NCBI RefSeq assembly: GCF_021462415.1
Contig: NZ_JAKEDS010000001.1
Location: 530,273-594,272, forward strand
Source of the DNA: Rhodohalobacter sp. 614A
GTDB taxonomy: Bacteria; Bacteroidota; Rhodothermia; Balneolales; Balneolaceae
Reading direction: 5' to 3'
DNA length: 64,000 nt
Made by a program: the position numbers and the translations under genes. The notes beneath the pieces were generated by a model. That model was not told the origin of the DNA. It searched no databases and saw nothing but the letters and a program-made list of their open reading frames with translations. This document shows, in pieces, positions 36,403 to 41,462 of the stretch; the first letter of the stretch is position 1; every line of letters starts with the position of its first letter.

Positions 36403-36582
36403 ATCAAAAAGTGGATGAGTTTATATAATCTTCATAGCGAAGTTAATCATCTCCATAACACAAAACACTTTTTTGAAAGTTCAGCAAACCGGTATTCTTC
36501 TATTTTTTTACAGTTTATAAATTTCTCTAAAATTCAACTTTCAAAAAAACTTGTGAGTCCTTACCTTATCTAAACTTCAAAC

Positions 36583-36705
36583 ATGGCTGATGAATACGCT
36601 TCAACTGACCAAATTCACAACCTTTTTTCCGAATACCAAATCCGACGCGGTTTCCGAGGTCGGATTTTTTTTGGACATCAGCTTTCGCTTTTTTGTAACT
36701 GCTAA
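36583..36705 (+). CDS. Putative 40-codon leader peptide of carAB
   Basis: An ATG at 36583 opens a 40-codon frame (MADEYASTDQIHNLFSEYQ... ending SLFCNC) that runs through a U-rich run (36623-36628) and the terminator hairpin (36638-36672), stopping 12 bp before carA. This is the arrangement of the pyrBI leader of E. coli, where a ribosome following closely behind stalled RNA polymerase prevents termination. There is no clear ribosome site, so translation is not proven. The reading frame itself may matter more than the peptide. Confidence 0.5.
   Translation: MADEYASTDQIHNLFSEYQIRRGFRGRIFFGHQLSLFCNC
36638..36672 (+). terminator. Terminator-like hairpin (attenuator) upstream of carA
   Basis: Arms AAATCCGAC (36638-36646) and GTCGGATTT (36659-36667) form a 9-bp stem, with CGG/CCG pairing inside the loop, followed by eight T residues at 36665-36672. 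It is a strong intrinsic terminator only 46 bp before carA on the same strand, so transcription into carAB must pass it. A U6 run at 36623-36628 could be a UTP-sensitive pause. Confidence 0.75.
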
Positions 36706-36717
36706 TCCCAAGCCTAT

Positions 36718-37839
36718 ATGACCCCCGCAGCACCCGAAAAAAAACCGGCCATTCTTGCGCTCTCCGACGGCACCGTTGTTCACGGCCGCGCCATTGGAAT
36801 TAAAGGAACCACAGGTGGAGAGCTCTGTTTTAACACAAGCATGTCCGGCTACCAGGAAATTTTTACCGACCCGAGCTACTATGGCCAGCTCATGATGATG
36901 ACCTACCCGCACATCGGTAATTACGGCACCATGAGCCGCGACGATGAAGCCCGAAAAGTAATGATTGCCGGACTTATCGTCCGTGCTTTCTCGGACGATT
37001 ACAGCAACCTAATGGCCGACGGAAGCCTCCAGGAATACCTCGAACGAAATAAAGTAGTAGGTATTTCTGATGTAGATACCCGGATGCTTGTAAAGCATAT
37101 CCGAACCAAAGGCGTGATGAATGCCGTTATCAGTTCGGAAATTCTGGATGAGGACGAACTCGTAAAACGAGCCAAAGATTGGGACCCGATGGACGGGCTC
37201 GAACTGGCGACGAAAGTCACACGAAATGAAGCTCAGACCATTCCGTCAGACGGACCTTTCAAAATTGCCGCGTTTGATTATGGAATCAAACAAAATATCA
37301 TCAACAATTTTAACCAGCGTGGATGTACACTCCGGATTTTTCCGGCCGAAACTGAGGTGGATGAACTTAAAGAATGGAATGCCGACGGCTACTTTTTCAG
37401 TAATGGCCCCGGCGATCCGAACGCCTCATCATCGTACGCTCTGCCTATTGTAAAGTACGCGAAAGAAAGCGGAAAACCCGTATTTGGTATTTGTCTCGGC
37501 CACCAGTTAATGGCACTCGCAGAGGGAATTCCCGTGAAAAAAATGTTTGTGGGCCATCGTGGTGCCAATCATCCGGTAAAAAATCTTGAGACCGGCTTGG
37601 TTGAGATCACAACTCAAAACCACGGGTTTGCCGTTGATGAAAAATCACTGGACGATTCCAAGGTTGAAGTAACCCACATCAACCTGAATGACAAAACCAT
37701 TGAAGGATTGAAATTCAAAACCTACCCGGGAATGTCGGTACAATATCACCCCGAAGCTTCGCCCGGCCCACACGATTCATCCTATCTATTTGACCAGTTT
37801 TTAGAGATGGTAAAAGAAACCAAAGGGGAACCGGCTTAA
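36718..37839 (+). CDS. carA: Carbamoyl-phosphate synthase, small (glutaminase) subunit
   Basis: CarA hydrolyses glutamine and passes ammonia to CarB for carbamoyl phosphate, used for pyrimidines and arginine. The 373-aa protein has the N-terminal CPSase domain (LALSDGTVVHGRAIG) and a class I glutaminase with catalytic cysteine in GICLGHQLMA near residue 258, plus the histidine and glutamate in YHPEASPGPHD. An attenuator-like hairpin lies just upstream. carB follows after 126 bp. Confidence 0.96.
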   Translation: MTPAAPEKKPAILALSDGTVVHGRAIGIKGTTGGELCFNTSMSGYQEIFTDPSYYGQLMMMTYPHIGNYGTMSRDDEARKVMIAGLIVRAFSDDYSNLMADGSLQEYLERNKVVGISDVDTRMLVKHIRTKGVMNAVISSEILDEDELVKRAKDWDPMDGLELATKVTRNEAQTIPSDGPFKIAAFDYGIKQNIINNFNQRGCTLRIFPAETEVDELKEWNADGYFFSNGPGDPNASSSYALPIVKYAKESGKPVFGICLGHQLMALAEGIPVKKMFVGHRGANHPVKNLETGLVEITTQNHGFAVDEKSLDDSKVEVTHINLNDKTIEGLKFKTYPGMSVQYHPEASPGPHDSSYLFDQFLEMVKETKGEPA

Positions 37840-37965: not shown

Positions 37966-40794
37966 ATGCCACGCCGTAACGACATCCACAAAATTCTAAT
38001 TATTGGTTCCGGTCCTATTATTATCGGACAAGCTTGCGAATTTGATTATTCCGGAACCCAGGCATGCCGATCTTTGAAAGACGATGGGTACGAAGTTGTA
38101 CTCATCAACTCGAACCCGGCCACCATTATGACAGATCCCATGATGGCCGACTCCATTTACCTGCAGCCGTTAACTACCGAATCCATCAAAGAAGTTGTAG
38201 CAAAGGAAAAGCCTGATGCCGTTCTGCCAACAATGGGTGGGCAAACCGGGCTGAACCTGGCGCGAGATCTTCAACACGAAAATTTCTGGACAGACAACGG
38301 CATCAAAGTGATTGGCGTAAATATGGACGCCGTAGACATCACTGAAGATCGTCAGTTGTTCCGTGATTTAATGGAAAAAATCGGCATTGACCAGTGCCGC
38401 AGCCGAACTGCAAACTCCCTTCTGGATGCGAAAGAAATTGTGGAAGAACTGGGCGGTTTGCCAATTGTTATTCGGCCTTCTTTTACGCTGGGCGGAACCG
38501 GCGGCGGAATTGTTTGGAATGAAGAAGAATTTGAACGAAAAGTACTCCGCGGGCTTGAAATGAGCCCGATTCACCAGGTGCTGATTGAAGAAAGCATCTT
38601 CGGCTGGAAAGAGTTTGAGCTGGAACTTCTCCGGGACGACAATGAAAATGTGGTCATTGTCTGTCCGGTTGAAAACCTGGATCCGTGCGGCGTTCACACG
38701 GGAGATTCTTTAACTGTGGCTCCACATCAAACATTGACGGATAAACAGTATCAAATTCTGCGGGACAACGCTATTAAAATGATGCGATCCATCGGTGACT
38801 TCGCCGGCGGATGTAACGTTCAGTTTGCTGTTGAACCGGGAAGTGACCGGGTTGTTGCGATTGAAATCAATCCGAGAGTAAGCCGGTCTTCTGCGCTGGC
38901 TTCGAAAGCTACGGGTTATCCCATTGCAAAAATTGCTACCAAACTTGCCGTGGGTTACACGCTGGATGAACTTCCAAATCCCATCACGCAAGTTTCATCC
39001 GCATGTTTTGAGCCTTCTATTGATTATGTTGTCGTGAAAATTCCACGATTCAACTTTGAAAAATTTCATAATGTAGATGAAGAGCTCACCACCCAGATGA
39101 AAGCTGTTGGCGAGGTAATGGCCATCGGCAGAACATTTCCTGAAGCCCTTAACAAAGCCTGGCAGTCTCTCGAAGTTGGGCGTGCCGGTTTGGGTGCAGA
39201 CGGTTATGCCGAACCGGACCGAAAAGAGGTTCGCGAACGGCTGTTAAAACCTTATTGGGACCGCACTCTGAACATCCGGAATGCCTTTAAATTCGGAACT
39301 TCGGTTGAAGAGATTTCGGATATCACAAAAGTGGATCCCTGGTTTTTACAACAGATCCGGTATATGGTTAGCCTGGAGAATAAAACAGAAGGTCACACGC
39401 TGGAATCGTTCACAAAAGAAGATCTTCTTGAAGTAAAACGAGCCGGATTTTCCGATGTGCAGATCGCATGGCTTCTTAGCAAAACCGGAGATAAAATCAC
39501 GGAAGAACAGGTTCGCCAAAAACGGCTTGAAATGGGCATCAAACCAAGTTTTAAACTGGTAGATACCTGTGCCGCCGAGTTCCCCGCTGAAACACCGTAT
39601 TACTATTCTACTTACGACAGCGATAACGAAAGTGAAGTCTCCGACAAGAAAAAAGTGATGATTTTGGGCAGCGGCCCGAACCGTATCGGCCAGGGAATTG
39701 AGTTCGATTATTCTTGCGTTCACGCCGTACTTGCCGCCCAGGAAATGGGTTACGAAGCCATCATGGTGAATTGTAACCCTGAAACCGTCTCTACGGATTT
39801 CGACATTGCCGACAAGCTTTATTTTGAACCGGTTTTCTGGGAACGGGTTCTTGATATCTATGAGCACGAAAAACCCGAAGGCGTTATTCTTCAGGTGGGC
39901 GGACAAACGGCCCTCAAGCTTGGAAAGAAATTTGTAGAAGCCGGAATACACATCTTTGGAACTGAATTTGAAATGATCGATTTTGCCGAAGACCGGGGAG
40001 CATTTTCCAAGTTCCTTAAAAAGCTGGATATCCCTTTTCCTGAGTACGGAACCGCCCGAAATGTGGAGGATGCCATCGATATTGCAAGAGGCATCGGGTA
40101 TCCTGTTTTGATTCGGCCGAGCTATGTTCTTGGCGGACAGGGAATGAGAATTGCCGTGAAAGAAGAAGAGATGAAAGGCTATGTAGAACGGATTCTACAA
40201 ACCCATCCCGAAAACGATTTTCTAATCGACAAATATCTCGATAAAGCCATTGAGGTTGATGTGGATGCTGTTTTTGATGGCACGCAACTTCATATCGCCG
40301 GAATTATGCAGCACATTGAACCGGCCGGTGTTCACTCAGGTGATTCTACCGCTGTGCTCCCACCTTACTCGCTTAGCGAAGAAGTGATTAAGAAGATTGA
40401 GGAGTATCAGTACAAGATTGCCAAGAACATGAATATCGTTGGATTTCTGAATGTGCAGTATGCGGTGAAAGACGAGAAAGTCTATGTTCTGGAAGCCAAT
40501 CCGCGATCTACCCGAACCATTCCTTTTTTGGCAAAAGCCACGCAGCGACCGGAGGCAAATATCGCCGTAAAAGTGATGCTGGGAGCTAAACTCACTGAGT
40601 TCGACCTGACATCAAAACTCAAAAACTGGGCGGTTAAAGAACCGGTGTTCCCATTCGACAAATTCCCTGAAGTAAAAAAAGAGCTTGGACCTGAAATGAA
40701 ATCCACCGGCGAAAGTATCTACTTCATGGAGAATTTCAACGACGAACACTTCAAGAAGCCGTATGAGTTTAAGAATCTTTATTTGAGCAAATAA
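37966..40794 (+). CDS. carB: Carbamoyl-phosphate synthase, large subunit, lacking allosteric domain
   Basis: CarB makes carbamoyl phosphate from ammonia, bicarbonate and two ATP. The 942-aa protein has two ATP-grasp halves, beginning [22 protein letters not shown] (about 8) and [22 protein letters not shown] (about 562), and an oligomerisation domain between. E. coli CarB is 1073 aa; this one ends at about the point where the C-terminal allosteric domain, which binds UMP and ornithine, would begin. The ending [12 protein letters not shown] is followed by a normal stop, so this looks like the native form rather than a break. Confidence 0.95.
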
Positions 40795-40853: not shown

Positions 40854-41462
40854 GTGAAACGACTTCAAGACTTACTGGATTACAATTTAGCCTGGGCTCA
40901 GGAGAAAAAATCTACAGAGCCCGATTTTTTCAAGAATCTGTCCAAACAGCAAACTCCAAATTTCTTATGGATTGGTTGTTCTGACAGCAGGGTGCCCGAA
41001 ACACAGATTTCGCAGCAAAACCCCGGTGATATTTTTGTACACAGAAATATTGCAAACCTGGTTTTGCACTCAGACATGAATCTGCAATCTGTTCTGCAAT
41101 ATGCTGTAGAGGTACTGAAAGTTGGCCACGTAATTGTGTGCGGACATTATGGATGCGGTGGAATTAAAGCCGCACTTGAAGATCAAAAACTGGGGTTGAT
41201 TGATAACTGGCTTCGAAATATAAAAGACCTGTACCAGCTTCATAAAGAAGAAATAGATTCGTTTGAAAAAGAAAGCGAAAGGGTTAACCGGCTGTCTGAA
41301 CTCAACGTTGAGCAACAGGTGCGTTATGTTTGCGATAATCCTTTTGTACGGTCGGAATGGGCTTCTGGCAGAGATTTATGGGTACATGGATGGGTTTATG
41401 ACCTGGAAACCGGCTTAATCAAAGACCTGGAAGTTACGGTTGGGAAGAAAGATTGTGTCTAA
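40854..41462 (+). CDS. can: Beta-class carbonic anhydrase
   Basis: The enzyme interconverts carbon dioxide and bicarbonate, which is also the substrate of the CarB enzyme encoded just upstream. The 202-aa protein has the zinc ligands in IGCSDSRVP (C-x-D-x-R near residues 41-45) and CGHYGCGG (H-x-x-C near 96-103). The start is GTG at 40854, 59 bp after carB, so supply of bicarbonate to carbamoyl phosphate synthesis is a sensible reason for the linkage. It converges on the matrixin gene with only 14 bp between. Confidence 0.94.
   Translation: MKRLQDLLDYNLAWAQEKKSTEPDFFKNLSKQQTPNFLWIGCSDSRVPETQISQQNPGDIFVHRNIANLVLHSDMNLQSVLQYAVEVLKVGHVIVCGHYGCGGIKAALEDQKLGLIDNWLRNIKDLYQLHKEEIDSFEKESERVNRLSELNVEQQVRYVCDNPFVRSEWASGRDLWVHGWVYDLETGLIKDLEVTVGKKDCV

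Follow-up and report, generated by a model that had tools for sequence, protein, structure and literature searches.

Introduction

The carA and carB genes are the entry genes of pyrimidine and arginine synthesis. In the pyrBI operon, another of the operons for pyrimidine synthesis, close translation of a leader prevents the terminator from acting (PMC5021804, PMC4824070). For carAB itself, the work of Kwon (1994), as recounted in PMC4997734, describes a leader peptide, together with a stem-loop on which the pyrimidine response depends, in Pseudomonas aeruginosa. A structured RNA located directly 5' of carA, the Polynucleobacter carA motif, is regarded as a riboswitch candidate (PMC8632094). 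Control of the pyrBI kind depends on ribosomes that stay close to RNA polymerase, and a 2026 study of this coupling gives a list of phyla with 'runaway transcription' that does not include Bacteroidota (PMC13323073); beyond this phylum-level list, no other statements on coupling in Bacteroidota were found.

Here we compare the carAB leader of a Bacteroidota genome with those of its relatives. The leader is rather probably a pyrBI-type transcription attenuator that depends on ribosome coupling, with pyrimidine supply as its likeliest signal. In the literature searched, which comprised open-licence papers only, no description of such carAB control in Bacteroidota was found.

The carAB locus and the collection of leaders

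The window (the whole stretch of 64,000 nucleotides that was analysed) comes from a Rhodohalobacter-like Balneolaceae genome, for which the nearest named carA relative found was Rhodohalobacter sulfatireducens, with 91% protein identity. The two genes are the following:

36718..37839, plus strand: carA, small subunit of carbamoyl-phosphate synthase (Pfam PF00988 and PF00117)
37966..40794, plus strand: carB, large subunit of carbamoyl-phosphate synthase (Pfam PF02786, PF25596 and PF02787)

Upstream of carA, the cysE gene is found in the opposite orientation, and the intergenic region is therefore divergent. Directly 3' of carB, on the same strand, lies a gene for a beta-type carbonic anhydrase (window positions 40854-41462, plus strand, Pfam Pro_CA), the product of which could furnish bicarbonate to carbamoyl-phosphate synthase.

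The collection consisted of 94 distinct carA upstream regions and 66 further loci sampled phylum-wide, which partly repeat the first set. Reading frames were counted in 62 Balneolales leaders, with start codons picked by clade pattern; loci L025, L029, L081, L083 and L084, in which the start codon was unrecognisable, and the loci of more distant families were excluded from these counts. Many of the relatives sampled are metagenome assemblies, and related genomes are non-independent samples.

A terminator precedes carA in nearly all Balneolales examined

36638..36672, plus strand: intrinsic terminator, composed of a hairpin (36638-36667) and a T8 tract (36665-36672), recognised from sequence, fold and conservation in Balneolales

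The original prediction had placed a strong terminator shortly upstream of carA, and this was confirmed. The hairpin, AAATCCGAC-GCGGTTTCCGAG-GTCGGATTT with a 12-nt apex, is followed by eight T, has an energy of about -14.6 kcal/mol and is located 45 nt upstream of carA, with a long T tract in the plus direction only. It was not called by the consensus terminator scan, probably because its apex exceeds the 3-8 nt loop limit of that scan. The terminator motif occurs a single time in this genome, which rules out a dispersed repeat, and since the intergenic region is divergent the hairpin is not the terminator of cysE.

In nearly all of the Balneolales examined, carA is preceded by a hairpin with a T8-T9 tract, usually with the core TCCGAC..GTCGGA. 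In the sampled Rhodothermales this place is mostly taken by different hairpins, several of them with a divergent TonB-like gene upstream, and among the more distant Bacteroidota sampled (L186-L203) the majority lack a terminator hairpin before carA. Among other Bacteroidota (L172-L185), several terminators were found 35-170 nt 5' of carA, without a convincing leader ORF.

A leader reading frame is kept open through the terminator

36539..36569, plus strand: Bacteroidota-type promoter-like element with conserved spacing, TTT at 36539 and -7 box TACCTTAT at 36562-36569
36583..36705, plus strand: 40-codon frame of the original prediction, present here, with a start codon that is not conserved in the leader comparison
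36590..36721, plus strand: conserved leader ORF of 43 codons, running through the terminator, with its TGA overlapping the carA ATG (ATGA); supported by 61/62 leaders and by stop counts

The 40-codon frame proposed to run from 36583 through the terminator does exist and stops 12 nt 5' of carA, but its ATG is private to this genome, the remaining 24 Rhodohalobacter-group leaders having none at that place. The start that is conserved, the ATG at 36590, lies in a GAGCTGATGAA-like context and differs in frame from the ATG at 36583. Conservation of a leader frame and hairpin in relatives was thus borne out across Balneolales, in the 36590 frame rather than in the one first noted. The distance from the start of the TAnnTT -7 element to the leader start codon is 28-31 nt in 25/25 Rhodohalobacter-group leaders, and from the promoter-like element the transcription start is predicted near 36574-36577. 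A carA transcription start downstream of the hairpin had been named as evidence that would speak against attenuation; the conserved promoter-like element sits upstream.

In 61 of the 62 Balneolales leaders the frame traverses the T tract and ends between -25 and +30 nt from the carA start, while 29.6 were expected from dinucleotide-shuffled spacers. From the T tract to carA, these 62 leaders have 3 stops in the 1570 codons of the leader frame, and 83 and 103 in the other two frames. Spacers between terminator and carA range from 32 to 281 nt; in those of at least 70 nt (n = 26), a stop was found once in the leader frame, versus 25 and 24 times in the other frames. The chance of an open frame under shuffling was 0.01-0.08 apiece for long spacers (114-281 nt), short spacers being little informative, and the long open spacers are spread over several clades, although the genomes are related and hence non-independent. 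Five loci have no recognised leader start codon, and the ORF is less clear in more distant families.

Long repeat-like insertions separate the terminator from carA in L030, L075, L082, L088 and L091 (spacers of 200-281 nt), with the leader frame still open. In the Fodinibius-type carA leaders L029, L083 and L084, an AUU in UUUCCGAA..UUCGGAAA is found where relatives have the AUG in a GACCAU..AUGGUC hairpin; this AUU is in frame with an ORF through the terminator and is a possible start codon.

Differences between the spacers of close relatives fall on codon positions 1, 2 and 3 in the numbers 321, 299 and 363, most of the changed codons are nonsynonymous, and the hairpin is read in differing frames by clade, as KSDAVSVVGFFL or QIRRGFRSRIFF. 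Because codon positions differ evenly and hairpin frames vary, it is translation through the terminator up to carA that appears conserved, and not the peptide. Judged from these comparisons, the peptide sequence is unimportant and passage of the ribosome through the terminator to carA is the conserved trait, an open frame being maintained up to about 110 codons despite peptide drift. The architecture of an attenuator, a terminator with a leader ORF crossing it, is very probably present, as far as sequence can indicate. Since terminator and crossing frame are both conserved in Balneolales, a ribosome on the leader frame probably governs whether carAB is transcribed.

RNA structure of the leaders

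36585..36592, plus strand: GGCUGAUG, outer stem, 5' arm, containing the leader start codon (leader fold and partner-swap test)
36676..36683, plus strand: CAUCAGCU, outer stem, 3' arm, immediately after the T tract (leader fold and partner-swap test)

The whole 135-nt leader is more stable than its own shuffles (z -2.3). Pairing of any upstream sequence with the 5' arm of the terminator did not exceed shuffles; an antiterminator is therefore not indicated, and an alternative structure of this kind was rejected. In the Rhodohalobacter group, the start region prefers its own downstream partner over partners taken from other genomes (P = 0.0008, against P = 0.14 for a control region). The outer stem GGCUGAUG/CAUCAGCU, which would pair the start region with the sequence after the T tract, is put forward with modest confidence. 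The pairing probability of the AUG by itself was not generally above shuffles, and for this reason sequestration of the start codon is treated as a structural hypothesis. A pseudoknot between the loop of a 5' hairpin and the leader start found no support (P = 0.78).

Balneola-/Gracilimonas-type leaders have a covarying stem that encloses the leader start codon (0/5000 in the swapped-partner test), with three pairs changed on both sides and nine cells versus 3.4 in shuffled data; its loop often contains a Shine-Dalgarno-like sequence. This stem is preceded by an almost invariant element, CAAAGCU..UAGCA..AGCUUUG, and the combination belongs to one subclade only. A covariance model of element plus stem gave 24 matches in 23/58 Balneolaceae genomes, with no match in the genome studied here. 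The matches checked against carA coordinates are located in the carA leader, none was found at other genes, and one genome has two. In the Balneolaceae chromosome record CP051242.1 (L100, L104), which has the coordinates of the two-match genome, two carA copies with identical upstream leaders are found at the record ends; this duplicate could be an assembly overlap. In Fodinibius leaders, inspection showed that GACCAU..AUGGUC flanks the start. The Rfam search gave no relevant family match in the leaders scanned.

Proposed mechanism and its signal

Transcription would begin about 15 nt 5' of the leader ORF. With no ribosome close behind RNA polymerase, the GC-rich hairpin and T8 tract would form and transcription would stop before carA, while a ribosome translating the leader right behind the polymerase would cover the hairpin and permit read-through; having finished at the carA start codon, this ribosome might be handed over to carA. 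Low UTP, and perhaps low CTP, would slow the polymerase before the hairpin and allow the ribosome to catch up. We infer that termination takes place in vivo, that translation prevents it and that pyrimidines provide the signal.

36623..36628, plus strand: U6 run 5' of the hairpin, which in this genome may serve as a UTP-sensitive pause site; present in 4/25 Rhodohalobacter-group leaders

The U6 run that the original prediction had pointed out is present, but it is unconserved, with U3 in the two nearest relatives. In Balneola-type leaders, the ORF stretch before the hairpin contains 48% U, which fits UTP-sensitive pausing; the same stretch contains 27% U and 29% C in the Rhodohalobacter group, and the three Fodinibius leaders are C-rich before the hairpin. 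Sensing of UTP by the carAB leader is plausible, and we give about even chances to nucleotide-dependent pausing as the signal. Pausing at UTP, or at UTP and CTP, is our first choice, and gating by PyrR is its main rival.

According to this rival, which we regard as unlikely though the strongest of the alternatives, the attenuator is unchanged but responds to whether leader translation can start, a step that PyrR or a small molecule would control: with plentiful pyrimidines the RNA around the start codon would be closed, no ribosome would load and the terminator would fire. PyrR was found above the family cut-off in 20/21 relatives examined, which keeps such gating in consideration, and the covarying start-codon stem of Balneola-type leaders adjoins a 5' element that hardly varies and is confined to carA leaders. 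The Thermus pyr operon has been accounted for by a combination of PyrR and a leader peptide. However, no PyrR-binding RNA of a known type gave a sensible Rfam match up to E = 1 in the leaders scanned, nor did any other family, the leader of this genome lacks the 5' element, and pairing of the start codon does not by itself exceed shuffles in general. A carA-specific RNA sensor made up of the Balneola-/Gracilimonas-type element and start-codon stem, and responding to PyrR or a small molecule, is rated as unlikely. If it exists, it would control whether the leader ORF is translated and thereby the terminator, a two-step translation-gated attenuator of which no description was found in the literature searched.

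Other observations concern pyr genes elsewhere in the genome. A further PyrR-like phosphoribosyltransferase, scoring under the family cut-off, is encoded at G000:C1:1590373-1590852 and is also present in most relatives. Upstream of pyrR-pyrB (G000:C1), at about 1745-1780 of locus L131, a small hairpin-like sequence, CACCUCGAGGUA, is located just 5' of the pyrR start, with variants in L135 and L139 (UUACACCGAGGUAA and CACCCUGAGGUA); it has no Rfam match and is a possible site of PyrR self-control. Visual inspection of the regions 5' of pyrR-pyrB, pyrE and pyrG showed no obvious leader attenuator.

Less probable again is that the leader senses general translation or coupling, such as ribosome supply or growth rate, instead of pyrimidines, so that any condition keeping ribosomes near the polymerase would give read-through. 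Conservation of the open frame alongside clade-to-clade variation in U content and peptide agrees with this, but the carA leader is the only known carrier and the U-rich stretch of Balneola-type leaders would be left unexplained.

Attenuation by an amino acid such as arginine, with ribosomes stalling at control codons and an antiterminator, is very improbable: carbamoyl phosphate feeds arginine synthesis and a leader ORF exists, but arginine makes up about 1% of the codons before the hairpin in the two large clades, no run of control codons for any amino acid is conserved there across clades, and no antiterminator pairing exceeds shuffles; the arginine version was rejected for lack of an arginine run and for this codon frequency. 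Equally improbable is that the hairpin simply ends an upstream transcription unit and that carA has its own promoter 3' of it, which would agree with the pre-carA terminators without a convincing leader ORF in some other Bacteroidota, but not with the divergent cysE here or the divergent TonB-like gene in several Rhodothermales, and which would not account for the leader frame being open or for a promoter element lying upstream at a constant spacing.

Comparison with known systems

Gating of the leader by PyrR invites comparison with the PyrR-controlled pyr operons of Bacillus and Thermus, which resemble the present case in that PyrR is encoded and in premature termination before pyrimidine genes; they differ in that the leaders scanned here have no Rfam match and no antiterminator. 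The carA motif of Polynucleobacter belongs to Betaproteobacteria and is an extended hairpin for which an effect on translation initiation has been proposed, unlike the ORF-crossed terminator described here. The P. aeruginosa carAB leader, as far as it is described in the account cited above, shares the operon and the combination of leader peptide and stem-loop, in another phylum.

Our preferred reading, a coupled attenuator responding to pyrimidine supply, is closest to E. coli pyrBI with its leader pyrL, in which an intrinsic terminator likewise lies within a leader ORF whose end is at the first structural gene, ahead of the first pyrimidine-synthesis genes. The resemblance to pyrBI originally proposed for this genome holds for the terminator crossed by a leader ORF, which is order-wide in Balneolales, but not for the start and frame then chosen or for conservation of the U6 run. 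The differences are that pyrBI of E. coli is in Proteobacteria and the present operon is carAB in Bacteroidota, that the leader stop here often overlaps the gene start, that the U tract is unconserved in the Rhodohalobacter group and that some clades have start-codon stems.

The conserved leader should work only with ribosomes close behind RNA polymerase, and it therefore offers a natural, testable reporter of coupling in Bacteroidota. Coupled attenuation itself is known from pyrBI; the same architecture before carAB of Bacteroidota, as predicted from these leaders, appears to be a variant for which no prior description was found, and it would place pyrBI-style, coupling-dependent control in a different phylum and a different operon, conserved across an order.
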